From a bacterium (lineage in GTDB: Bacteria; UBP15; UBA6099), in NCBI GenBank assembly GCA_029564595.1, contig JAKQPS010000082.1, forward strand, positions 1-64,000: 64,000 nt of DNA. The letters run 5' to 3'. How positions within the stretch are numbered: position 1 is the stretch's first letter; every line of letters starts with the position of its first letter. A program made the translations under genes and the position numbers. The notes beneath the pieces were generated by a model, which saw nothing but the letters and a program-made list of their open reading frames with translations, searched no databases and was not told where the DNA came from. Positions 15,304 to 43,394 of the stretch are shown here, one piece after another.

Positions 15304-15633
15304 AATTAGCTCCTTGAAAAGATGTCTTAACTATTATGTCGGCAACGCACGCTAGAAGCAATCCTGAAGAAAAAAATGCCGAATATTTGTATGTCAGCCA
15401 AAGATTGAAGCAAAGAAGCAACAGCAATCAGAGCAGTTTGTGAATTATGCCACAAAGCGTCAGTCTTCTTTGCGGCCTATAAAAATAGCTGACAGCGCCA
15501 AATCTTCACAATGTGCGCACGGCTGACAAATATTGCTTTTGATTATAGCTATTTTAAGTTCAAGTGATTGGCATGAATGTTGCAATAGATAATTGGGATT
15601 AAAGTGTATTAATAAATGACAGAGGTTGGGAAA
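15304..15633. promoter_or_regulatory. divergent control region between the carboxylesterase and the hydrogenase island
   Basis: The 330-base gap has no gene. On the minus strand a candidate promoter for the esterase reads TTGCTT-17-CATAAT (plus coordinates 15356-15361 and 15333-15338). On the plus strand a sigma-54 promoter lies at 15568-15584. Upstream of it are TGTCAGCC (15392-15399), GCGTCAGT (15457-15464), GCTGACA (15488-15494) and GGCTGACA (15521-15528): direct and inverted copies of one core, placed where enhancer sites of NtrC-type activators are normally found. Confidence 0.6.
15568..15584 (+). promoter_or_regulatory. sigma-54 promoter of the hydrogenase island
   Basis: TTGGCATGAATGTTGCA matches the consensus YTGGCACGRNNNTTGCW at all defined positions but one. 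The invariant GG (-24) and GC (-12) are exactly ten bases apart. Transcription would start near 15595, about 40 bases before the first ATG. A sigma-54 activator gene ends the same island (33944-35368). Confidence 0.8.
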
Positions 15634-16014
15634 ATGCACATCATAGGAGCGCAACTGGCGGAGAAACTGAAAGCGGAAATGCTGGTAGAAGCGCCCGGAG
15701 TTAATACGGTGTCGTTTGACTCAATAGTGGCTTGCGACATGATGAGCGACTTGCTGTCGATGATGAATCACGGAGGTGGAGATAGCGGTGTGTCTGCGCT
15801 ATTGACGGGGCTGACGAACAAGCAGGTGGTAAGGACAGCGGAGATGGTGGATATAAAGCTGATTGTGTTCGCGAACGGAAAGAGGCCTCTGGCGGAGACG
15901 ATCGAGTTGGCTGAAAGATGCGGCATATCGCTAGCGAGCACGGAATACACGATGTTCAGAAGCTGTGGAATACTGTTTGAATGCGGAATGAAAGACGTGG
16001 GCGGATCAAATTGA
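15634..16014 (+). CDS. DRTGG-domain protein of the [FeFe]-hydrogenase cluster (first copy)
   Basis: About 126 residues forming a single DRTGG-type domain: MHIIGAQLAEKLKAEML at the start, ACDMMSDLLSMM, then KLIVFANGKRPLAETIELAERCGISLAST. These small proteins recur beside [FeFe]-hydrogenase genes in anaerobes; their molecular function is unknown, with the related CBS/DRTGG fold suggesting nucleotide or ligand sensing. I placed the start at 15634, eight bases after GAGG, rather than at the in-frame ATG 15616, which lacks a ribosome-binding site. The stop overlaps the next start (TGATG). A second copy lies at 17807. Confidence 0.82.
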   Translation: MHIIGAQLAEKLKAEMLVEAPGVNTVSFDSIVACDMMSDLLSMMNHGGGDSGVSALLTGLTNKQVVRTAEMVDIKLIVFANGKRPLAETIELAERCGISLASTEYTMFRSCGILFECGMKDVGGSN

Positions 16015-16472
16015 TGAGCGGCGGAAGCGATAGCGAAGAAAAGATACGCATGCAACTGCCTATTAGAGGCGGAGATTTCAGCAAAGCCGGGGAGGCGTCG
16101 AGCAAGATAAAAAACATATTGAAACAGTTGGGTGTAAGCCCGGCGGTTATTAAGAGAGTCGCGATAGCTTGTTTCGAGTCTGAAATCAACATTGTGGCAT
16201 ACGCCAACAAGGGGCAATTCTCGGTGGATATAACAACTGGGGAGATTAGAGTGCTGGCGAAGGATGAAGGGCCGGGGATTGAATGTGTGGAGATGGCGAT
16301 GATGGAGGGTTTTTCAACTGCTCCGCCAGAGTTGAGGGAAATGGGATTCGGCGCGGGAATGGGGTTGCCGAACATAAAAAAAGCGGTCGACTGGATGAAG
16401 ATCGAATCCCAAGTCGGAGTGGGCACGGAGTTGGAATTCAAGATACTGTTCGGCGGCGGCGAGAATGGATAA
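16014..16472 (+). CDS. RsbW-like ATP-binding protein (GHKL fold, anti-sigma/kinase type)
   Basis: About 152 residues of a stand-alone GHKL ATPase domain with an N-box like ESEINIVAYA, G1 box DEGPGI and G2 region GFGAGMGLPNIKKAVD. There is no phosphoacceptor His domain, so it resembles serine-kinase/anti-sigma factors of the RsbW/SpoIIAB type more than histidine kinases. Such genes are found in [FeFe]-hydrogenase clusters and are thought to signal H2 or redox state; no target is known. No STAS antagonist is adjacent. Start at 16014 is fixed by the TGATG overlap; the gene overlaps the hydrogenase paralogue by 8 bp. Confidence 0.83.
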   Translation: MSGGSDSEEKIRMQLPIRGGDFSKAGEASSKIKNILKQLGVSPAVIKRVAIACFESEINIVAYANKGQFSVDITTGEIRVLAKDEGPGIECVEMAMMEGFSTAPPELREMGFGAGMGLPNIKKAVDWMKIESQVGVGTELEFKILFGGGENG

Positions 16473-17820
16473 GCAGACAGTGGAATATTTTCACTCGGTG
16501 CGCCTCATAGAGGAGGAGTGCAAGGGCTGCACTCACTGTATACGAACTTGTCCGACGGAAGCGATTCGGGTAAGACACGGGAAGGCGAGAATCATCGAGG
16601 AGAGGTGCATAGACTGCGGAGAGTGCATTAGGACATGTCCGAACAGCGCGAAGATAACTGTTACGGACTCATTGGAGATCCTGAAGGAATTCAAGCATAA
16701 AATTGCGATTCCGGCTCCATCTCTTACGGGACAGTTTTCAAGCAAACACACGGCGACCGGAATGTTGTCGGGATTTTTGCACATGGGTTTTGACGATGTG
16801 TTGGAGGTGGGTTTCGGGGCCGGACTGCTTTCGAGGGCGATAACCGAATATTTGAGGGGGGCCGGGTCAAAGATACCGCGTCCGGTTATATCCTCTGCGT
16901 GTCCGGCGGTTGTGCGATTGATACAAGTCAGGTATTCGGGGCTGGTTGAAAACATTCTTCCGATGCAGTCGCCGATGGAAGTCACGGCGCGATATGTGAA
17001 GGAGAGAGCCGCCGAGGCTACAGGTCTTGACGAGAAAGAAATCGGGGTGTTTTTCATATCGCCGTGTCCGGCCAAGGTGACGGTGGTAAAGCAGCCGATA
17101 GGCGCGGAGAGGTCGTATGTCGATGGCGTGATAGCTGCGAAAGACGCCGTGAATTACATAAGAAAAAATTTTGATGATATCGAAGGCAGGAATGGAATAC
17201 AGAAAGCGGGCGGTTCAGGGATAAGCTGGGGAAGAAGGGGAGGAGAGGTCGCGTCGATAGGCATACCGCGCAAGCTCTCCGTCGATGGGATCCACCATGT
17301 CAGGAAGATTTTGGACAAGGTGGAAGAGGGGGGGTTGAAGAAGATCAATTTGATCGAAGCGCAGGCATGTGTAGGCGGATGCGTCGGCGGGGTTTTAATG
17401 GCGGAGGACCCGTTTTTGGCGAAAGTCAAAATTGACATAGTATCGGAAGAGATAGGCGCGAAGAACGACGCCCAGCTTGACGAGGCGTATGGCGGCGTAA
17501 AAAAGGAAATGTTTTTTCTTGATGGAAAGGTAGGGCCGAGACCAATAACTCCATTGGACACGAATGTTGATGAAGCGATGAAGAAGCTGAAGGCGATAGA
17601 ATGGCTTTGCGGAGTGTTGCCGGGTTCGGACTGCGGCTCATGTGGGTGTCCGACATGCAGGGCGTTCGCAGAGGATGTGGTGATGGGGTTATCAACGCCT
17701 TTGGACTGTCAGTTCAAGATGCGGGAACAGGTTGGCGGATTGGTTGCCGAGATTCACGAGCTTCTGAAAAAACTTCCGCATACGGAATGGAAAAGGGGCG
17801 CGGAGAATGAAGATATCTGA
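16465..17820 (+). CDS. HydS-like [FeFe]-hydrogenase paralogue with altered H-cluster motif
   Basis: 451 residues. Two [4Fe-4S] motifs lie at residues about 12-60 (CKGCTHCIRTCP, CIDCGECIRTCP). An H-cluster domain follows with P1 SSACPAVV (about 142-149), P2 SPCPAKVTVV (about 199) and P3 ACVGGCVGG (about 299), then a C-terminal Fes-type cluster motif DCGSCGCPTC (about 391). The four H-cluster ligand cysteines are kept, but the proton-relay Cys of TSCCP is Ala, as in sensory HydS enzymes. Unlike typical group C sensors it has no PAS or kinase domain; the neighbouring separate ATPase could supply that role. It probably senses H2 rather than turning it over quickly; that role is inferred. Confidence 0.85.
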   Translation: MDKQTVEYFHSVRLIEEECKGCTHCIRTCPTEAIRVRHGKARIIEERCIDCGECIRTCPNSAKITVTDSLEILKEFKHKIAIPAPSLTGQFSSKHTATGMLSGFLHMGFDDVLEVGFGAGLLSRAITEYLRGAGSKIPRPVISSACPAVVRLIQVRYSGLVENILPMQSPMEVTARYVKERAAEATGLDEKEIGVFFISPCPAKVTVVKQPIGAERSYVDGVIAAKDAVNYIRKNFDDIEGRNGIQKAGGSGISWGRRGGEVASIGIPRKLSVDGIHHVRKILDKVEEGGLKKINLIEAQACVGGCVGGVLMAEDPFLAKVKIDIVSEEIGAKNDAQLDEAYGGVKKEMFFLDGKVGPRPITPLDTNVDEAMKKLKAIEWLCGVLPGSDCGSCGCPTCRAFAEDVVMGLSTPLDCQFKMREQVGGLVAEIHELLKKLPHTEWKRGAENEDI

Positions 17821-18154
17821 TATGGCGGCGAGATTCGGTTTCGAGATGTTGACAGCGCCAAAGGACAGCGAGATCGAAGTCGAGGGCGGATACGCCTCGG
17901 ACTTGCTGAGCGACGTGATAGCGAGGGCGGAAAGCGGGAATGTTTGGGTGACGACGCAAACGCATGTGAATATCGTGGCCGTGGCGTCGCTAAAGGAACT
18001 TGCCGCCGTAGTAATAGTGAGCGGAAGGAAACCGGATGAAGAAACGATAGATTTGGCTAAGACCAAAGGGGTGTGCCTGTTGGGGGCGCAATCGCCCGCA
18101 TACGAGGTGGCGGGAAGGCTCTATGAGGCGGGGATAAGGGGGTCTCCGAAATGA
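17807..18154 (+). CDS. DRTGG-domain protein of the [FeFe]-hydrogenase cluster (second copy)
   Basis: 115 residues with the same plan as the protein at 15634: MKISDMAARFGFEML, GYASDLLSDVIARA, VASLKELAAVVIVSGRKPDEETIDLAKTKG. The two copies are clearly divergent, so they are probably a functional pair, not a recent duplication. It overlaps the HydS-like gene by 14 bp, indicating tight coupling. Function is unknown; ligand sensing is a guess from the fold. Confidence 0.82.
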   Translation: MKISDMAARFGFEMLTAPKDSEIEVEGGYASDLLSDVIARAESGNVWVTTQTHVNIVAVASLKELAAVVIVSGRKPDEETIDLAKTKGVCLLGAQSPAYEVAGRLYEAGIRGSPK

Positions 18155-18235: not shown

Positions 18236-18760
18236 ATGCCGAAGGGAGTTGTTGAAAAGAAGGTGGAGCAAAGTTCGGAATTCACGCCTGAGCAGTTTGC
18301 GGAGCTTGACGCCGCAATTGAGAGTTTTCGAGGCAAGTCAGGCTCGACTATCAGGACGTTGAGCAAGGCGCAGGAGATTTTCGGATATCTGCCGAAAGAG
18401 GTTCAGTCGATAGTTGCCAAGGGGCTGGGAATCCCTATGAGCGAGATATACGGAATAGCGACATTCTACTCGTTCTTCAGCCTCGTGCCGAAAGGCAAGC
18501 ACACAATCAGTTCATGTCAGGGAACCGCCTGCTACGTGAGAGGCGGCAAACAGGTTATGGACGAGCTGAAGAATCTGTTGGGGATAGATGTGGGCGGAAC
18601 GACGGCGGACAGACAGTTCTCGCTTGACTCGGTGAGATGCGTCGGGGCATGCGCGCTGGCTCCGGTCGTGCGCATTGATGACGACGTGTACAGGCAGATG
18701 TCCCCGAAGAAACTGAAGCCGATTATTGCTAAGTATTCAGATTCAGCGGAGGGCGAATAA
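18236..18760 (+). CDS. hydC: HydC, NuoE-like [2Fe-2S] subunit of NAD-linked hydrogenase
   Basis: 174 residues of the NuoE/HydC family: a helical N-terminal bundle (AIESFRGKSGSTIRTLSKAQEIFGYLP), ATFYSFF, and a thioredoxin-like [2Fe-2S] domain with cysteines in SSCQGTACYVRGG and VRCVGACALAP. It carries electrons between HydB and HydA in the soluble trimeric enzyme. AAGGAGGAAGGG precedes the ATG. The 81-base gap before it holds only a basic 34-codon reading frame that I do not accept. Confidence 0.94.
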   Translation: MPKGVVEKKVEQSSEFTPEQFAELDAAIESFRGKSGSTIRTLSKAQEIFGYLPKEVQSIVAKGLGIPMSEIYGIATFYSFFSLVPKGKHTISSCQGTACYVRGGKQVMDELKNLLGIDVGGTTADRQFSLDSVRCVGACALAPVVRIDDDVYRQMSPKKLKPIIAKYSDSAEGE

Positions 18761-18761
18761 A

Positions 18762-19142
18762 ATGGCGAAACTCAGCATCGAAGATCTACAGAAGATTAAG
18801 GACAAGGGAAGAGCTGCGGCCGGAATGAGGGGTAGCGAGCACAAAGACGTCCGCGTCGTGGTGCATATGGGCACGTGCGGAATCGCTTCCGGCGCGCGAG
18901 GAGTGATGAACGCGCTTCTCAAGGCGGTCGAGGACAAGAATCTGGACGTGGAGATTAGTCAATCCGGGTGCATAGGCATTTGCGACAGAGAGCCTATAGT
19001 GTCCGTGATTCGCAAGAATGAGCCGATGATCAGATACGGCAAAGTCACGCCCGCCGCGATGGAGGAAATAGTCGAGTCGCACATCATTGGCGGCGCTGTG
19101 GCTGAGAAGTATTTGATGATCGAAACATCGGAGAAGAAATAA
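18762..19142 (+). CDS. small thioredoxin-like [2Fe-2S] protein of the hydrogenase cluster (HydD-like)
   Basis: 126 residues of the thioredoxin-like ferredoxin fold. It has VVVHMGTCGIASGARGVMNA and SQSGCIGICDREP, three cysteines in the usual cluster region. Homologous small subunits accompany many HydABC operons, where the role is thought to be accessory electron transfer. Start is ATG 18762, eight bases after GGAGGG; the in-frame ATG at 18726 would overlap hydC and lacks a ribosome-binding site. Confidence 0.85.
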   Translation: MAKLSIEDLQKIKDKGRAAAGMRGSEHKDVRVVVHMGTCGIASGARGVMNALLKAVEDKNLDVEISQSGCIGICDREPIVSVIRKNEPMIRYGKVTPAAMEEIVESHIIGGAVAEKYLMIETSEKK

Positions 19143-19180: not shown

Positions 19181-22100
19181 ATGAAGCGATACAGGTCAAC
19201 AGCGCTTGTATGCGGCGGCACTGGTTGCGTGGCCGCCGGCTCGTTAAACATTTACGAGCAGATTTTCAGGGAATTGAGAAAATACAGACTTGAAGAGGAA
19301 GTCAACCTTGTTCTTACGGGATGCAACGGCATTTGCGACCAAGGGCCGGTGCTTGTGATATACCCCGAAGGGACTTTCTACAACAGAGTTGATCCGGCCT
19401 CGATATCAAGAATCGTCGAGGAGCATCTTCTCAAGGGAAGAATAGTGAAGGAGTTGTCGTATGACCGCTCGAAGGGCGAGGGTCAGCCGCCGGTTTTCGG
19501 CGAAATCGACTTCTTCCGAATGCAGCACAAGGTGACGAGGGCGAACTGCGGCGTTATTGATCCGAGGTCTATCGACGAATACATAACGATGGACGGATAC
19601 AGCGCGCTGGCAAAGGCGCTCAATGAGATGACCCCGGACGAGGTTATCGCGGAAGTGAAGAAATCCGGGATCAGAGGCAGGGGCGGAGCGGGATTTCCGA
19701 CTGCTCTCAAATGGCAGTTCTGCCGACAGGCGGCGGGGGATCAGAAGTACATCATGTGCAACGCGGACGAGGGAGACCCCGGCGCGTTTATGGACCGCAG
19801 CCAGCTCGAAGGCGACCCGCACAGCGTGTTGGAAGGAATGGCGATAGGCGCGTACGCGATTGGCTCGAACATGGGCTACGTATATTGTCGCGCTGAATAC
19901 CCGCTGGCGATAGAGATGCTAGGCACGGCGATCGATCAGGCCCGCGAGTACGGATTGCTCGGCAAGGACATTCTGGGAAAAGGTTTCGATTTCGACATCG
20001 AGATTATGATGGGCGCAGGCGCGTTCGTATGCGGAGAAGAGACCGCGCTGATGAGGTCGGTCGAAGGCAAACGCGGCGAACCGAGGCCGAGACCGCCGTT
20101 CCCGGCCATCGCCGGTCTGTGGGAGAAACCTACTGTTCTTAACAACGTCGAGACTCTAGGCACTATACCAGTCATTCTGCGAAAGGGCGGAGACTGGTAC
20201 GCCTCTATGGGCACTGAGAAGAGCAAGGGCACGAAGATATTCTCGCTCACCGGAGCCGTCAACAACAACGGTCTCGTCGAAGTCGATATGGGAACGTCGA
20301 TGGGGACGATCATATACGACATCGGCGGCGGGATTCCCAAAGGCAAAAAGTTCAAAGCGGTGCAGTGCGGCGGGCCTTCAGGCGGCTGCATTCCCGCTCA
20401 GCATCTGAATGTTCCTATCGACTATGACGCCATAGCCGAACTGGGCGCCATCATGGGTTCAGGCGGTCTGGTGGTTATGGACGAGGACACCTGCATGGTC
20501 GACACCGCAAGATACTTCCTCGATTTCGTTCAGGACGAGAGCTGCGGCAAGTGTCCCCCCTGCAGGATAGGGACCAAGAGGATGCTTGAGATACTCGACA
20601 GAATATGCGAAGGCAAGGGAGAAAACGGAGACATAGAGGAACTGGAAAGGCTGGGCGAGTTGATCAAACAGACCGCGCTATGCGGACTTGGCCAGACGGC
20701 CCCGAACCCCGTGTTGAGCACAATAAGGCATTTCCGTGAAGAATATGAATCTCATATTGTCGAGAAAAGGTGCAAGGCGGCGGTCTGTGGATCGCTCTTC
20801 CGCGCTCCTTGCGAGCACACCTGCCCGGTAGGGCTTGACGTGTCAGGTTATATCACGTTGATCTCCGAAGGCAAGCTTGACGACGCGTATGAGTTGATAA
20901 TGGAAAGGAATCCGCTGCCGGGCGTCTGCGGGCGAGTATGCACGCATCCCTGCGAATCCAAGTGCAGGCGCGGACAGCTTGATGAGTCGATAGACATTAG
21001 AACGCTCAAGAGGTTCATTGCTGACAACGCGATTAAGAGCGATTCGGCGGCTAAGATTGAAAGAACGGCTCTGACCGGCGAACCCGTGGCGGTGATCGGG
21101 TCCGGGCCTTCCGGTTTGACGGCCGCTTACTTCTTGGCGAGGATGGGACATCCGGTGACTATATTTGAGAAACTGGATGTGGCCGGCGGAATGCTCGCGG
21201 TGGGCATCCCGAAATACAGGCTTCCTGAAGATATCCTTAAATATGAGATCGACACGATCAAGAGCTTCGGCGTCGAGATCAAAAACGGCGTCGATGTCGG
21301 ACGCGATGTCACTGTGGACGAGTTGTATGACAAAGGTTTTAAAGCGGTATACATCTCAGTTGGAACTCAGGGAAGCTATCAAGTAAAAACTCCCGGCATG
21401 GACCTCAGCGGAGTATATCCGGGATTGGATTTCTTAAGGGACTTCAGAGTGGGCAAGAAAGTGAAAGTCGGAAAGAAAGTGGCGGTCATCGGCGGAGGAA
21501 ACACCGCGATAGACGCAGCCAGAACGGCGCTTAGACTTGGCGCGGAAGAGGTCAACCTGATATACAGAAGGACTCGCGAAGAGATGCCCGCAGCCGACGA
21601 GGAAATCGAAGAAGCGATGCGCGAAGGAGTAAGGCCGTACTTCCTCACCGACCCGATTAAAGTCGAGGGAGCGAAGGGCAAAGTGGCCAAACTCGTTTGC
21701 ACGAGAATGACGCTCGGCGATTTCGACAAGAGCGGCAGGCGCAGACCTGTTCCGGTCGCGGGAACCGAATTTGAGATTGAAGTGGACATGGTAATCCCCG
21801 CTATCGGCCAGCAGACGGAACTCGACGGACTGGTCGGAGACAAAATCCGCGTGGACGGCGGTTACATCATGGTGGATAAGTACACGATGGCGACCGACCG
21901 CGAAGGCGTGTTCTCCGGCGGCGACGTTATCGGGCAGGAAGCCACAGTGGTGTGGGCGATGAGGAACGGACAGCGCGCCGCGGCCGAGATAGACAGGCAT
22001 CTCGGCGGAAGCGGGAGATTGCCGGAGGCAGTGCGCGCGAAGTTTAACATCGGGGCGATTCCGAGACAGGGCGAAGAGGAAATCGTCGAAGAGCCGCGCG

Positions 22101-22273
22101 TGAAACAGAATTGTCTGCCGGTCGGCGACCGTAAAGGCTCTTTTGTTGAGACCGAACTTGGCTTTGACGCGGCAATGGCCGCCAAGGAAGCGTCGCGTTG
22201 CTTGAGATGCGACTACGGAAAAGAAGATCTGCCTTTCCAGAAACAAGAGCTTGAGATCGCGAAAGGCAAGTGA
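19181..22273 (+). CDS. hydB: HydB-GltD fusion: NuoF-like flavoprotein joined to NADPH-dependent GltD-type oxidoreductase
   Basis: 1030 residues. Domain order: thioredoxin-like [2Fe-2S] (1-110; CGGTGC and CNGIC); NuoF FMN/NADH domain (about 130-400; GRGGAGFPTALKWQF and NADEGDPGAFMDR); the NuoF [4Fe-4S] motif ESCGKCPPCRIG (about 450); then a GltD-like half. In the latter, cysteines in PCEHTCPVG and CTHPCESKC bind [4Fe-4S] clusters, VIGSGPSGLTAAY binds FAD, and VIGGGNTAIDAARTA with YRRTREEMPA fits NADP(H). The usual HydB C-terminal ferredoxin domain is replaced by the GltD part. This is the plan of glutamate-synthase-linked hydrogenases and suggests one enzyme connecting H2, NAD(H), NADP(H) and ferredoxin. 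Confidence 0.94.
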   Translation: MKRYRSTALVCGGTGCVAAGSLNIYEQIFRELRKYRLEEEVNLVLTGCNGICDQGPVLVIYPEGTFYNRVDPASISRIVEEHLLKGRIVKELSYDRSKGEGQPPVFGEIDFFRMQHKVTRANCGVIDPRSIDEYITMDGYSALAKALNEMTPDEVIAEVKKSGIRGRGGAGFPTALKWQFCRQAAGDQKYIMCNADEGDPGAFMDRSQLEGDPHSVLEGMAIGAYAIGSNMGYVYCRAEYPLAIEMLGTAIDQAREYGLLGKDILGKGFDFDIEIMMGAGAFVCGEETALMRSVEGKRGEPRPRPPFPAIAGLWEKPTVLNNVETLGTIPVILRKGGDWYASMGTEKSKGTKIFSLTGAVNNNGLVEVDMGTSMGTIIYDIGGGIPKGKKFKAVQCGGPSGGCIPAQHLNVPIDYDAIAELGAIMGSGGLVVMDEDTCMVDTARYFLDFVQDESCGKCPPCRIGTKRMLEILDRICEGKGENGDIEELERLGELIKQTALCGLGQTAPNPVLSTIRHFREEYESHIVEKRCKAAVCGSLFRAPCEHTCPVGLDVSGYITLISEGKLDDAYELIMERNPLPGVCGRVCTHPCESKCRRGQLDESIDIRTLKRFIADNAIKSDSAAKIERTALTGEPVAVIGSGPSGLTAAYFLARMGHPVTIFEKLDVAGGMLAVGIPKYRLPEDILKYEIDTIKSFGVEIKNGVDVGRDVTVDELYDKGFKAVYISVGTQGSYQVKTPGMDLSGVYPGLDFLRDFRVGKKVKVGKKVAVIGGGNTAIDAARTALRLGAEEVNLIYRRTREEMPAADEEIEEAMREGVRPYFLTDPIKVEGAKGKVAKLVCTRMTLGDFDKSGRRRPVPVAGTEFEIEVDMVIPAIGQQTELDGLVGDKIRVDGGYIMVDKYTMATDREGVFSGGDVIGQEATVVWAMRNGQRAAAEIDRHLGGSGRLPEAVRAKFNIGAIPRQGEEEIVEEPRVKQNCLPVGDRKGSFVETELGFDAAMAAKEASRCLRCDYGKEDLPFQKQELEIAKGK

Positions 22274-22328: not shown

Positions 22329-23081
22329 ATGACGGAAGAGCTTGAAAGGATAGCCGCCGATCTGCACACGCACACGGCGCTCTCGCCGTGCGCCGAGAGG
22401 AGCGCGACGCCTCCCGCGATAGTGAAAGCCGCGCTCGAAAGGGGACTGGGCTTGATAGCAGTGACAGACCACAACACCGCAGGCAACGCGGCGGCGGTTG
22501 TTCGTTGCGGAGAGCTTGCGGGGCTGAAAGTTCTTCCGGGAATTGAAGTTACGACCCGCGAGGAAGCCCATGTGGTCTGCCTGTTCGACGATGTGGAGTC
22601 TGCTTTGAAATTAGAGGATGCGATCTCGGCGGCGTCGCCCGCGATACCGAACGACGCCGCCCTGTTCGGCCGCCAAGTTCTGATGAATGACCTTGGCGAA
22701 GAAACAGGTGAAATCGAGCGGATGTTGCTAATGGCTTCTGACATAAGCGTGGAGAGTTTGGCTGAACTTGCGCGCGAATTGGGCGGGTTGGTCGTGGCGG
22801 CGCATATCGACAGATCCGCAAACAGCGTGGTTTCCAACCTCGGCTTTATTCCTGAGAGCGCGCGGTTCGACGCTCTTGAAATAACAGCTAACACGACCAA
22901 AGAAGAAGCCGCGGAAAGATTTCCGGGAGCGGAAAGATATCCTCTGATAAGGTCTTCTGACGCGCACGCGCCTGAACAGGTGGGAGATGCTTTTACGCTG
23001 TTTCTGCTGGCCCGGCCGACCACTGCGGAAATACGGTCGGCGTTGCGTGGCGAATGCGGAAGGGAATATCTGGTTGAATGA
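22329..23081 (+). CDS. PHP-domain metal-dependent phosphoesterase
   Basis: 250 residues of the PHP superfamily: the first metal motif DLHTHTALSPCAE (residues about 11-23), AVTDHNTAGNAAAV, GIEVTTREEAHVVC, VVAAHIDRSANS and a late SSDAHAPEQVG. All expected metal ligands appear present, so it is likely an active phosphoesterase hydrolysing a small phosphorylated molecule or nucleotide. PHP genes recur in hydrogenase clusters next to a GHKL ATPase, suggesting a signalling or cofactor role; neither substrate nor product is known. The stop overlaps the next start by 4 bp. Confidence 0.88.
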   Translation: MTEELERIAADLHTHTALSPCAERSATPPAIVKAALERGLGLIAVTDHNTAGNAAAVVRCGELAGLKVLPGIEVTTREEAHVVCLFDDVESALKLEDAISAASPAIPNDAALFGRQVLMNDLGEETGEIERMLLMASDISVESLAELARELGGLVVAAHIDRSANSVVSNLGFIPESARFDALEITANTTKEEAAERFPGAERYPLIRSSDAHAPEQVGDAFTLFLLARPTTAEIRSALRGECGREYLVE

Positions 23082-23524
23082 GAGAACTGGCCGACCACAT
23101 ACTCGACTTGGCGGAGAATTCAATCCGCGCCGGAGCCAAGAATCTCAGGATCGGGCTTGTCGAGGACGAAGCGGCCGGAACACTGACTCTTGAGGTGGCG
23201 GACGACGGACGGGGAATGACCGAAGAACAGGCGAAAAATGCCGCCAAACCGTTTGTTACAACCAAGACTGTCGGGAGTGTCGGGCTGGGATTGTCGCTCA
23301 TGCGGCAGACAGCCGAACAGAGCGGAGGAAGGCTTGAGATAGAGTCAAGTCCGGGCGGAGGGACTGTGGTTAGAGCAATTATGATTAAGGATCACATAGA
23401 CCGGCCGCCGGTGGGAGACTTGAACGCCACGCTGATGGCGATCATAGGGGCCAATCCCACGCTCGGGATGGATGTGCGGATAGCAATGGATGGAGAGGAC
23501 GAAAGATTTACCGCCGCCCGATAG
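23078..23524 (+). CDS. stand-alone GHKL ATPase of the hydrogenase cluster (second copy)
   Basis: 148 residues, with an N-box LAENSIRAGA, G1 DDGRGM, a lid FVTTKTVGS and G2 VGLGLSLMRQTAEQSGG. This is a histidine-kinase-type ATPase domain without a phosphoacceptor His, followed by about 45 residues without recognisable motifs. Closer to histidine-kinase catalytic domains than the RsbW-like protein at 16014. It may phosphorylate or allosterically control a partner such as the histidine kinase or response regulator downstream. That is inference. Confidence 0.84.
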   Translation: MRELADHILDLAENSIRAGAKNLRIGLVEDEAAGTLTLEVADDGRGMTEEQAKNAAKPFVTTKTVGSVGLGLSLMRQTAEQSGGRLEIESSPGGGTVVRAIMIKDHIDRPPVGDLNATLMAIIGANPTLGMDVRIAMDGEDERFTAAR

Positions 23525-23579: not shown

Positions 23580-25304
23580 ATGGCTAATGTCACGTTAAGC
23601 ATCGATGGAAAGACAGTGACGGTTCCGCAGGGGACTTCTGTTTTGGAAGCCGCGAAAACCGTCGGAATACACATACCCACGCTTTGTTATCTCAAGGATG
23701 TGCAGGCGATAGGAGCCTGCCGGGTGTGTGTGGTGGAAGTGATGGGACAGAGGACGCTGCAGGCGTCTTGTGTGTTCCCTGTCGCGCAGGGCATGGTCGT
23801 GAAGACCAACTCGCCTCTTGCGCGCGCGGGCAGAAAAATGGTCGTGGAACTGCTGTTGTCCGACCATCGCATGGAGTGTCCGACATGCTCGCGCAACCTT
23901 AACTGCGAGTTGCAGAAACTCTCGCAGGACCTCGGCATAAGGGACATCCCTTATTGCGGAGAAAAAGCGAAAGTGATAATCGACGAATCTTCTCCCGCGC
24001 TGATGAGAGATTCCAGCAAATGCGTTCTGTGCAGAAGATGCGTGTCGGTATGCCAGCAGATACAGAAAGTCGGCGTGCTTTTCCCGTCGCACAGAGGCTT
24101 CAAGACGACTATCGGCACGGCGTTCGACTCGCCGATAGCGGACGTCGAATGCGTCAACTGCGGTCAGTGCGCGGCGGTTTGTCCCGTGGGAGCGATTGTG
24201 GAAAGGGACGATGTGCATAAGGTCTGGGCGGCGATAGAGGATCCGAAGAAATTCGTTGTCGTTCAAACAGCCCCGGCGATTCGCGCCGCGATTGGCGAAG
24301 AGTTTGGCCAAGAACCCGGAACCGCAGTGACCGGCAAGATGGTGGCGGCTTTGCGCAGGATGGGATTCGACAAAGTATTCGACACTCAGTTCAGTGCCGA
24401 CCTTACCATCATGGAAGAGGGCAATGAATTGCTTAAGAGGGTCACTACAGGCGGCAAGCTGCCGATGATAACCTCTTGCAGTCCGGGATGGATCAAATTC
24501 ATTGAGCACTTCTATCCGGATTTGCTCGACCATGTCTCATCCTGTAAATCGCCTCAGCAGATGTTCGGCGCGGTCGCCAAGTCGTATCTAGCGCAGAAAC
24601 TGAATATAGATCCGAAGAACATGGTTGTGGTGTCCATAATGCCGTGCACCGCCAAGAAGTACGAATGTGAAAGGCCTGAAATGGAAGCAGAAGGAGTGAG
24701 GGATGTCGATATCGTATTGACCACGCGCGAAGCCGCAAGAATGATCAAACAGGCAGGCGTGAATCTTCTTGAACTAGATGAAGAGGAATTCGACAATCCG
24801 TTGGGCGAGTCAACAGGAGCGGCGACGATATTCGCGGCGACGGGCGGCGTCATGGAAGCGGCGTTGCGCACGGTATACGAAGTTGTCACGAAAGACAAGC
24901 TGCCTTCCATAGATTTCGAGGCGGTCCGAGGAATGGAAGGGATTAAAGAGGCGACAGTCAAGGTTGGAGACCTTGATGTGAAGGTGGCCGTCGGACATGG
25001 TTTGTCCAACGCGAGAGAACTGATGGACAAAATACGCGCCGGAGAGGCGGATTATCACTTCATAGAGATAATGTGCTGTCCCGGCGGATGCATAGCCGGC
25101 GGCGGACAGCCGATACCGACCACATGGGAGACTCGCAAGTTAAGAGCCAAGGCGATATATGATGAAGACAAACGGCTTTCGTCCAGAAAATCCCACGAGA
25201 ACGAATGCGTCTCGGATCTTTACAAGGAATTCCTGAAGGAGCCGCTTGGAGAGAAGTCCCATCATCTTTTGCACACGCATTACAAAGACAGGAGTGGATG
25301 CTGA
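23580..25304 (+). CDS. hydA: HydA, catalytic subunit of trimeric [FeFe]-hydrogenase
   Basis: 574 residues. An N-terminal [2Fe-2S] ferredoxin domain (CYLKDVQAIGACRVC) leads to a His/Cys-ligated cluster (HRMECPTCSRNLNC), two [4Fe-4S] motifs (CVLCRRCVSVC, CVNCGQCAAVCPVG), and the H-cluster domain with P1 TSCSPGW (298-304), P2 MPCTAKKYE (354-362) and P3 CCPGGCIAGGGQP (about 499). P1 has Ser at the second Cys of TSCCP, and a Cys replaces the usual Ala in SSCKSPQQ about 20 residues later. Length suits NAD-linked enzymes without the extra C-terminal [2Fe-2S] domain. Works with HydB and HydC in reversible H2 formation. Confidence 0.95.
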   Translation: MANVTLSIDGKTVTVPQGTSVLEAAKTVGIHIPTLCYLKDVQAIGACRVCVVEVMGQRTLQASCVFPVAQGMVVKTNSPLARAGRKMVVELLLSDHRMECPTCSRNLNCELQKLSQDLGIRDIPYCGEKAKVIIDESSPALMRDSSKCVLCRRCVSVCQQIQKVGVLFPSHRGFKTTIGTAFDSPIADVECVNCGQCAAVCPVGAIVERDDVHKVWAAIEDPKKFVVVQTAPAIRAAIGEEFGQEPGTAVTGKMVAALRRMGFDKVFDTQFSADLTIMEEGNELLKRVTTGGKLPMITSCSPGWIKFIEHFYPDLLDHVSSCKSPQQMFGAVAKSYLAQKLNIDPKNMVVVSIMPCTAKKYECERPEMEAEGVRDVDIVLTTREAARMIKQAGVNLLELDEEEFDNPLGESTGAATIFAATGGVMEAALRTVYEVVTKDKLPSIDFEAVRGMEGIKEATVKVGDLDVKVAVGHGLSNARELMDKIRAGEADYHFIEIMCCPGGCIAGGGQPIPTTWETRKLRAKAIYDEDKRLSSRKSHENECVSDLYKEFLKEPLGEKSHHLLHTHYKDRSGC

Positions 25305-25365: not shown

Positions 25366-26403
25366 ATGAGTCAACCCGGCGATAACTCGAAGCAGGCGAG
25401 CGATTTGAGATCTCTGTCTGCCGAGATAGGGCGAAGAACCGCGCTTGTCGGCGGAAAGAGGCTGAAGAGAATTGAGCGACTTGGGTGGGCATCAGTCTGT
25501 TTACTCGTCTTCTCTATACTTCCGGCTGCGGCGGTTCTATCGGCGCCACATCTCCTTGCGCCGAGACTTGCCCTGCCGGTACTGCTCGTTGCCGGACTGT
25601 CTGGGCTGCTGGCATGGTACGTCAAAGTCAGATCAACAGTGTCCAGACTCAGGGAAATCTCCGAGCTATGGGGAAAGTACACCGAAGTCCAAGAAAACAT
25701 GATCCGCCAACTCAGGCAGATCGATGTGACCAAGAAGACGATGATGAACATGGCTTCCCACCAGATGAGGGCGCCGCTCGCGGCGGTGCAGAGTTGTCTG
25801 CGAGTGTTGCTGTCCGGCGCGGTCAAGGAGCCTGAGGACTGTATGAAACTGATGAACGACGCATACGAACGCGGCGAGGACATGATGGACATGGTCAACG
25901 ACATGTTGAAACTCGCCGAGGCGCGTGTCGATTCAGCCAGACGGATTGACGAGATTGATGTCGAGAAAGCCGTCAGAAAGATAGCGCAGTTCTTTTCAGT
26001 CAGGGCGGCGGAGCGCAATGTTGATATCCGCGTCGCGGTCGGAACCGCTCCGGGTTTTTTGCGAGCGGACCGCAAGATGTTCGACCACATCATGCTTAAC
26101 CTGATCAGCAACGCATTTCAATATTCCGACCCTAACAAGCCGGTGATGATACACGTGTACAGGATCGAAGACGACGTAAAAATCAGAGTCACGAACTGGG
26201 GCGTTGTAATTAAACCGGACGAGATGGAGCATATTTTTAGGGAGTTCTGGAGGTCGCCGGAGGCCATGCAGAGAGTTTACAGAGGCACCGGTCTCGGCTT
26301 GCCTATCGTCAAGAGCATAGTGGACACGATGGGCGGGTCGATTGATGTGAAAAGCGACGAGACTAACGGAACGTCGTTTACTGTTTCAATTCCCGTGAAA
26401 TAA
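25366..26403 (+). CDS. membrane sensor histidine kinase between hydA and hydG
   Basis: 345 residues. Two transmembrane helices (about 42-61, 63-85) with almost no periplasmic loop, a short coiled linker, a HisKA domain with the phosphoacceptor His in MASHQMRAPLAA (about 130), and HATPase with N-box NLISNAFQYS and G2 TGLGLPIV. The G1 box is degenerate (TNWGVVI instead of DxGxG). Lack of an external sensing loop suggests it reads a membrane or cytoplasmic signal, perhaps from the cluster's redox or ATPase proteins. The response regulator follows 15 bp later. Confidence 0.88.
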   Translation: MSQPGDNSKQASDLRSLSAEIGRRTALVGGKRLKRIERLGWASVCLLVFSILPAAAVLSAPHLLAPRLALPVLLVAGLSGLLAWYVKVRSTVSRLREISELWGKYTEVQENMIRQLRQIDVTKKTMMNMASHQMRAPLAAVQSCLRVLLSGAVKEPEDCMKLMNDAYERGEDMMDMVNDMLKLAEARVDSARRIDEIDVEKAVRKIAQFFSVRAAERNVDIRVAVGTAPGFLRADRKMFDHIMLNLISNAFQYSDPNKPVMIHVYRIEDDVKIRVTNWGVVIKPDEMEHIFREFWRSPEAMQRVYRGTGLGLPIVKSIVDTMGGSIDVKSDETNGTSFTVSIPVK

Positions 26404-26418
26404 CGAAAGGAGAAAAAC

Positions 26419-26802
26419 ATGGCGAAAAGCAAGATTCTGATTATCGAGGACGATCCGACGATCGTCAGTTCCCTTACTATTCTGCTGAAGGGAGAATACG
26501 AGATCGATTCGGCGAAGAATGGCGCCGAGGGCCTTGAGAAAGTGGACTCATTCAAGCCGGATTTGATCATTCTCGATCTTCTCATGCCCGGCGTTGACGG
26601 GTTTGAGGTGTGCAAGCAACTCAAACAGCAGGACAAGTACAAGGGCATTCCCGTAATCGCGCTTTCGTCTTTCACCGAACTTTACGATATGCGGTTCGGC
26701 GACGAAGACACGAAGGGATCATTGCCCTCGGATGTATATTTGACAAAACCGCTGGATCCCCCGACTCTCCTCAGAGAGATCAAGGAACAGCTCAACAAAT
26801 GA
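26419..26802 (+). CDS. single-domain (CheY-like) response regulator
   Basis: 127 residues making one receiver domain. The acidic pair is in IIEDDPT, the phosphoacceptor Asp in LIILDLLMPGVDGF, the Thr/Ser position in ALSSFTE and the Lys in YLTKPLD. It has no output domain, so it must act on a protein partner or in a phosphorelay. The pairing with the kinase just upstream is close (same strand, 15 bp gap, AAGGAG site). Confidence 0.92.
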   Translation: MAKSKILIIEDDPTIVSSLTILLKGEYEIDSAKNGAEGLEKVDSFKPDLIILDLLMPGVDGFEVCKQLKQQDKYKGIPVIALSSFTELYDMRFGDEDTKGSLPSDVYLTKPLDPPTLLREIKEQLNK

Positions 26803-42626: not shown

Positions 42627-43394
42627 ATGGCCGCCGACAGAAAAAAACAAGAAGAGATAAGGGTTTTTGAAGTGTTGAAAACCGGCGACGGTATGAACAC
42701 GGAAAAAACTGGAATAAAGGATTGTTCGATTCCGGGATTTGAAGTTGCGGCAAGTTCAGTTCCGGTCGGTTCGCAGGGCGGCGACTTCTACAGGATAGCG
42801 GGGATTGAGGACGGCCTATCCGCATTCATTGTCGGCGATGTGGCGGGACATGATTTTTCTTCATCTATGAAAGCTACGGAGGCCGTGAAATATATAGAAG
42901 AGAATCAGGATGCATTGACGCATCCCAATTTGTTTTTGCACGGTATGAACAAGAAACTGCATAACACGCTTGCGTCCGTGAGCAGGTTTTTTACGGTATC
43001 GGTGGCAATAGTGAACAGGAACTCAAACACGCTTTTGTACAGCGGAGCAGGGCATCCGCCGGGGTTGTTGTGGAGGGAATCTGACGGCTCTATTGAATGG
43101 TTGTCAGCTAAAGCGATGCCGCTGGGGTTTGATAAGAATCAGTCTTTTCCGCTTGTTTCGATCGACTTTTTTATCGGCGATATGTTGTTGATGTACACCG
43201 ACGGAATAAGCGAATCGAGAAACGCGGAGAAAGAAGAGTTCGGATTATCCAGAATCGAGGAATCATTCAAGAAGAACGCAGGAGAAGGGCCGTTTGAATC
43301 TGCAGTTAAGTTGCTGAAGTACGTGATTGCGTTCGGCGCGGGCGGCCCCGGAATCGACGATAGAACGATATTGTGTATAAGGAGATTGTCATAG
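42627..43394 (+). CDS. SpoIIE-type PP2C serine/threonine phosphatase
   Basis: 255 residues, one PP2C/SpoIIE domain with metal-binding acids in GGDFYRI, VGDVAGHDFSSS, LLMYTDGISESRN and GIDDRTILC. Such phosphatases dephosphorylate anti-sigma-factor antagonists or other Ser/Thr-phosphorylated proteins in the cytoplasm. A possible counterpart to the RsbW-like ATPase at 16014, but no STAS protein is in the window. No sensor domain is attached. Next gene starts 3 bases after its stop. Confidence 0.87.
   Translation: MAADRKKQEEIRVFEVLKTGDGMNTEKTGIKDCSIPGFEVAASSVPVGSQGGDFYRIAGIEDGLSAFIVGDVAGHDFSSSMKATEAVKYIEENQDALTHPNLFLHGMNKKLHNTLASVSRFFTVSVAIVNRNSNTLLYSGAGHPPGLLWRESDGSIEWLSAKAMPLGFDKNQSFPLVSIDFFIGDMLLMYTDGISESRNAEKEEFGLSRIEESFKKNAGEGPFESAVKLLKYVIAFGAGGPGIDDRTILCIRRLS

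Follow-up and report, generated by a model that had tools for sequence, protein, structure and literature searches.

A group D [FeFe] hydrogenase encoded with an RsbT-like ATPase and two DRTGG proteins: a candidate H2-responsive switch module

The literature asks explicitly how [FeFe] hydrogenases of group D, which carry no PAS domain of the group C kind, could pass on an H2 signal (PMC8163306). The window analysed here, a stretch of 64,000 nucleotides from a UBP15 bacterium (GenBank assembly GCA_029564595.1, contig JAKQPS010000082.1, positions 1 to 64,000), raises this question for a sensory-type enzyme whose gene belongs to a run of four overlapping forward-strand genes in the order DRTGG-a, GHKL ATPase, HydS-like [FeFe] hydrogenase, DRTGG-b. 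We propose, at a probability of about 0.6, that they encode an H2- or redox-responsive switch-kinase module, in which HydS would provide the input, an RsbT-type ATPase would be the output kinase and the DRTGG proteins would be their partners. The identity of HydS and of its partners is well supported; the H2-switched RsbT-like kinase is the best supported mechanism, which we infer. Elsewhere the ATPase is fused to HydS or to a DRTGG protein, suggesting a signal route for a sensor without a signalling domain of its own.

The hydrogenase and its operon

The ORF at 16465..17820 (451 aa) matches the large hydrogenase domain Fe_hyd_lg_C (PF02906, 5e-34) and the C-terminal FeS domain PF04060 (1e-11) and contains two Fer4 [4Fe-4S] motifs, while the same Pfam scan gave no small-subunit and no PAS match. 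The protein ends after the FeS domain and has no PAS/kinase extension of the group C type. Its H-cluster cysteines are C146, C201, C302 and C306, all four of which are kept in 152/152 group D-like relatives. SSACP spans residues 143-147 and places A145 at the proton-relay position of CpI C299, where 102 of the 152 relatives have Ala and 29 have Ser, with no Cys among the residues listed; S199 stands at the M353 position, which is Ser or Thr in 146 of the relatives. The C-terminal cysteines C390, C393, C398 and C415 form an exact Cx2Cx4Cx16C motif. For the residue comparison T. wiegelii HydS stood in for TamHydS, with equal numbering at C20, R30, R32, K35, E252, E289, C379 and C404. In TamHydS numbers, the window protein keeps the group D residues E252, E289, D265, R30, R32, R42, D378, E392, D393 and D403 (its own E261, E298, D274, R35, R37, E403 and D404 correspond to E252, E289, D265, R30, R32, E392 and D393); S249, a moderately conserved site, is replaced by Arg. 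In a tree of 218 sequences groups C and D together are split from group A with a support of 0.998, and the window HydS branches with D, sister to C; the node of group C, which takes in three further tips, reaches 0.96, and that of D, into which one additional, divergent tip falls, 0.70.

Since residue tests and tree agree, the assignment to the sensory-type group D (M2e) is well supported at the sequence level. The original prediction of a sensory-type hydrogenase without PAS or kinase, having intact H-cluster cysteines, Ala in SSACP, two ferredoxin clusters and an FeS motif, is thereby borne out. Group D enzymes are known as 'putatively sensory' (PMC8163306, PMC10407848, PMC13104023). TamHydS is catalytically active and turns over H2 (PMC8163306), so the role of HydS may not be purely sensory. 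A conformational signal would fit, because TamHydS is reported to alter its secondary structure upon H2, which does not reduce the C-terminal cluster (PMC13104023). The H-cluster itself can be made, as the maturases HydG, HydE and HydF are encoded within the window.

The genes of the cluster are tightly packed on the forward strand. DRTGG-a (15616..16014, 132 aa) may start at 15634, as first annotated, the two start codons being equally plausible; its end shares the TGATG at 16014 with the start of the ATPase (16014..16472). The ATPase gene overlaps that of HydS by 8 nt, and DRTGG-b (17807..18154, 115 aa) overlaps the 3' end of HydS by 14 nt. Further downstream follow a HydC/NuoE-like subunit of the probable target complex (18236..18760; PF01257, 3e-49), a thioredoxin-like protein of the [2Fe-2S] family (18744..19142; PF01257 7e-4, fdxn_Clost 1e-11) and HydB (19181..22273), which combines NuoF (2e-152 on residues 128-526) and a GltD-like NAD(P)-binding domain (about 535-941) in one fused chain. 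This HydB has 1030 aa, and comparably long frames occur in Moorella relatives (L048, L083). Then come a PHP-domain protein (22329..23081; PF02811, 2e-8), a second GHKL ATPase termed HAT2 (23078..23524; HATPase_c, 4e-18), whose place is conserved in relatives, and the catalytic group A hydrogenase HydA (23580..25304), which scores 931 bits with the A6 model NF040763 (cut-off 765).

Partners conserved beside HydS

The protein encoded at 16014 is a GHKL ATPase (HATPase_c, 2e-7) with intact ATP-binding boxes: E55 and N59 of the N-box, D84, G86 and G88 of G1 and the G2 glycines are invariant in 41 sequences. By analogy with SpoIIAB and RsbW we take the invariant Glu to be the catalytic base, and the protein is probably a serine kinase. 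Among solved structures its profile finds SpoIIAB at 5e-12 and then, among others, RsbW at 4.5e-4, with PDK/BCKDK among the weak matches; the AF2 model (pLDDT 90) also has SpoIIAB as its best fold match (1.7e-11). When the profile was run on the sigB operon of Lysinibacillus, the protein in the RsbT position, called as the one preceding PP2C, STAS, RsbW and SigB, scored 59 bits and RsbW of the same operon 16 bits. By this comparison the ATPase is RsbT-like and not RsbW-like. An RsbW-like ATPase overlapping the start of HydS had been predicted: the overlap stands, and the RsbW identity is rejected, since RsbT scores far higher and neither sigma factors nor STAS proteins recur as neighbours.

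Assignment of the flanking proteins relied on their relatives and on a structure model. DRTGG-b (motif W.T.QTH.N..AVA) scores 22.4 bits with PF07085, just under the cut-off of 25.2, and DRTGG-a, which aligns with the DRTGG-a proteins of relatives, had no Pfam match in the scan. The Thermoanaerobacter orthologues of the two pass the cut-off at 29.6 and 29.1 bits, and the AF2 model of DRTGG-a (pLDDT 87) has the DRTGG protein AF1212 (2ioj) as its best PDB match and also matches 3l2b, the CBS-DRTGG region of a pyrophosphatase; both proteins are therefore DRTGG proteins. They form two clean clades (split 149/149, support 0.999). All of 39 aligned DRTGG-a sequences keep S44 and T64; by inference only, these two residues are candidate phosphoacceptors.

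To describe the neighbourhood, a genome collection was scanned with HydS alone and 80 loci were taken from at least 590 relatives. By record titles they are mostly from Clostridia, with others from Sumerlaeota, Atribacterota, Spirochaetes, deltaproteobacterial lines, Planctomycetes, Armatimonadetes and Muiribacterium. When the window is counted in, 75/78 loci have the ATPase directly upstream of HydS, 69/78 have DRTGG-a ahead of the ATPase, and in 66/77 HydS is followed by DRTGG-b. These fractions are descriptive, as the loci share descent, are rich in Clostridia and are thus not independent; still, the arrangement is not due to chance, because the same order recurs in Clostridia and several other phyla. 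The commonest order is DRTGG-a, ATPase, HydS, DRTGG-b, PHP, NuoE, HAT2, Trx-2Fe2S, HydB, HydA. In 56 loci the downstream sequence extends for 8.5 kb or more. Of these, 47 contain PHP, which lies beside DRTGG-b in most relatives, 38 contain HydA and 38 HydB; in 18 both HydA and HydB are missing within 9.5 kb downstream, so the nearby target cannot be HydABC in every case. Mirror-tree correlations give this pairing weak support, being modest and confounded by descent (r = 0.74 for HydS-ATPase versus 0.54 for ATPase-HydB). Clustering of the neighbour genes of the 80 loci yielded no further frequent partner family (best 14/80), nor did any family of transcription factors, sigma factors or STAS proteins recur beside the module. 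The flanking of the ATPase-HydS pair by DRTGG proteins and the link to the PHP gene, both part of the original prediction, thus hold across relatives. The SpoIIE-type phosphatase suggested as an output does not: such a gene occurs near the module in 1/80 loci, and its link to the module as a general feature is rejected. The one in the window (42627-43394), about 25 kb away, has no fused sensor domain and is one of three in the source genome.

Some loci deviate. Two from Spirochaetaceae (L089, L092) have HydS without either DRTGG gene, in Anaerosolibacter (L038, L045) DRTGG-a and HydS are present and the ATPase was not found, and in the order with the ATPase-HydS fusion described below no DRTGG-a was found upstream. 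No single partner is thus strictly required. Some loci also hold additional HydS-type genes. One (L108, G064:C14:7947-9263) is a second group D copy with an in-frame TAG, with no ATPase or DRTGG gene recognised within about 1.5 kb. Another (L025:9992-13311) follows a group D HydS, and its C-terminus resembles, by eye, a methyl-accepting (chemotaxis) signalling domain. In the Moorella group (L048, L083) a group C-type HydS ORF follows the group D operon downstream of hydA, complete in L048 and truncated in L083 where the locus stops; one hydrogenase may thus be served by sensors of both types.

Natural fusions and modules without HydS

In 17/17 genomes of one order, ATPase and HydS are a single ORF without stops (57-100% identity), and in the class that includes Tepidanaerobacter, 18/26 genomes have DRTGG-a and ATPase as one ORF, which covers query residues 1 to 267-269. 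In several lines the ATPase carries a fused CBS pair. The ATPase therefore has natural covalent links to both HydS and DRTGG-a. Alignments in which fused chains were mixed with large numbers of separate DRTGG and ATPase sequences came out misaligned and were left out, and a smaller mix aligned well; the AF2 structures are single-domain models rather than models of the fused chains. The fusions are evidence of association, not of signalling direction. Combined with the near-universal adjacency (75/78), they make the ATPase the most likely signalling partner of HydS, in agreement with the output originally suggested. They also name the partner proteins and offer ready-made single-chain forms (ATPase-HydS and DRTGG-ATPase).

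The association is also specific when viewed from the ATPase. In 290 genomes chosen by their relation to the window, the best 30 ATPase matches (E below 1e-52, with strong matches continuing to 1e-41) have a DRTGG neighbour in 30/30 and also a HydS neighbour in 26/30. The other four loci (L192, L195, L196, L199) contain DRTGG-a, ATPase, DRTGG-b, PHP and HAT2 without HydS, and in three of them the ATPase is CBS-fused. Wider views of these HydS-less loci show NuoE/Trx/NuoF-like genes nearby and, in one, a [NiFe] hydrogenase large subunit (by eye). Since such modules occur near NuoE/Trx/NuoF-like genes, the module appears to be a more general one that attaches to NADH-linked complexes and may or may not include HydS as its H2 input. 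At L217:1-8548 (G292), a HydS-less DRTGG/CBS-ATPase/DRTGG/HAT2 set lies beside NuoEF-like genes and apparent [NiFe] hydrogenase subunits (by eye). In Parabacteroides distasonis (L216:5629-9400) a six-gene module from DRTGG-a to HAT2 has no HydABC beside it; the record is listed as a plasmid, and it adjoins gyrA, so it is perhaps chromosomal.

Possible outputs and relation to known systems

In the mechanism that we favour, group D HydS would be the H2/redox input of a multi-protein switch and the RsbT-type ATPase its output kinase, forming a complex with HydS and both DRTGG proteins in the source organism, with PHP and the second GHKL ATPase as members of the same module. Binding of H2 or the redox state of HydS would alter the HydS-ATPase conformation and thereby switch a protein-kinase or partner-binding activity. 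The DRTGG proteins would occupy the position of STAS proteins in the stressosome, as phosphoacceptors or as adenine-nucleotide-sensing partners, and the likely beneficiary would be the HydABC bifurcating hydrogenase of the same operon. A broader version can be offered only tentatively, at less than even odds: DRTGG-a, the RsbT-like kinase and DRTGG-b, together with PHP and the second GHKL ATPase, would be a widespread undescribed module with group D HydS as its sensor of H2 or CBS domains as its sensor of adenine nucleotides, turning electron-bifurcating NADH complexes on or off by partner switching, with DRTGG replacing STAS. Many fermentative, syntrophic and gut bacteria have the module next to bifurcating hydrogenases, so this may be the route by which H2 production responds to H2 pressure.

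The lack of any recurring transcription factor, sigma factor or STAS family would suit an ATPase that phosphorylates a metabolic enzyme in the manner of PDH kinase, also a GHKL protein, acting on a HydABC subunit, with PHP as the phosphatase and HydS and CBS/DRTGG as gas and energy sensors. The frequency of PHP, the position of the module by NuoEF-type complexes even without HydS, in one case with adjoining [NiFe] genes, and the weak PDK/BCKDK matches point the same way. However, the nearest relatives of the ATPase are RsbT and SpoIIAB, not PDK, and the 18/56 loci and Parabacteroides have the module without HydAB nearby, so that we consider this reading rather unlikely. That kinship of the ATPase and the three SpoIIE-type phosphatases of the genome, one of them at 42627, would instead favour transcriptional partner switching, where the ATPase would bind and withhold a sigma factor or else activate a phosphatase of the PP2C family, as in the RsbU type. 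This is improbable: the RsbW-type match is weak, and the STAS partners and PP2C target of an RsbU-type operon do not recur among the 80 loci, where neither a STAS family nor a sigma factor is repeated and SpoIIE is confined to a single case.

Still less probable is a role in assembly or repair, with the two GHKL ATPases as chaperone-like helpers of HydABC maturation and HydS as a slow accessory enzyme. TamHydS does turn over H2 (PMC8163306), and the A. woodii HydE protein, in the place of HAT2, is absent from the purified enzyme (PMC3315566), but the ATPase is RsbT/SpoIIAB-like rather than Hsp90-like, DRTGG and CBS are regulatory domains, and the module occurs without HydAB nearby. Just downstream of hydA, on the same strand, the window also encodes at 25366-26802 a histidine kinase (25366; HisKA and HATPase_c) and an adjacent response-regulator-like ORF (26419). 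A two-component output through this pair is very improbable, as it is no conserved part of the module elsewhere: such genes are rarely near it, and a histidine-kinase-like ATPase domain is found upstream only in L025, L034 and L051.

The H2-responsive switch kinase that we prefer resembles the TamHydS system (PMC8163306) most closely. Both hydrogenases share the group D diagnostic residues except S249 and K126, lack PAS, carry a C-terminal cluster, have an ATPase neighbour and lie upstream of a group A bifurcating hydrogenase. For T. mathranii HydS, the flanking genes were given as an ATPase and an 'AraC family regulator' (PMC8163306), whereas in T. wiegelii, the relative compared, they are the ATPase of this module and DRTGG-b, without an HTH match. 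On the T. wiegelii flanks, the 'AraC' regulator is not accepted here as a HydS neighbour, and the label in T. mathranii probably reflects the annotation of DRTGG-b. The window differs from the usual order in that PHP and HAT2 are placed after hydB. By gene order HAT2 is the equivalent of A. woodii HydE, a protein missing from the enzyme as purified that, according to PMC3315566, 'may be involved in assembly or signalling'.

Group C HydS (TmHydS, M2f) likewise has two N-terminal clusters, a C-terminal four-Cys motif and no Cys at position 299. In contrast to the window protein, all of the eight group C sequences (8/8) carry an attached C-terminal extension of 153-339 aa of the PAS/kinase type; they have Leu or Met at E252, Ala at D393 and Tyr at S384, the residues E252, D393 and D403 are absent altogether and E392 mostly so. 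None (0/8) has an RsbT-like ATPase or DRTGG as its own neighbour; the group C loci L025 and L048 also contain a group D module. With RsbT, RsbW and SpoIIAB of the stressosome and the sigma-B/F systems the ATPase shares the GHKL serine-kinase fold and its boxes, but the module has DRTGG proteins instead of a STAS antagonist, sigma factor and PP2C. The CBS-DRTGG region of family II pyrophosphatase has the same DRTGG fold, and CBS pairs are ATPase-fused in some relatives, whereas the window encodes DRTGG as a separate protein next to a hydrogenase and a kinase-like ATPase. In a literature search that covered a minority of subscription papers, the sole joint mention of DRTGG and hydrogenase concerned an unrelated gene. 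That group D genes lie near kinases and bifurcating hydrogenases was already pointed out in 2012 (PMC3561251), their closeness to kinases also later (PMC8163306); the present analysis adds the two flanking DRTGG families, the RsbT-likeness of the ATPase, the natural fusions and the module without HydS.
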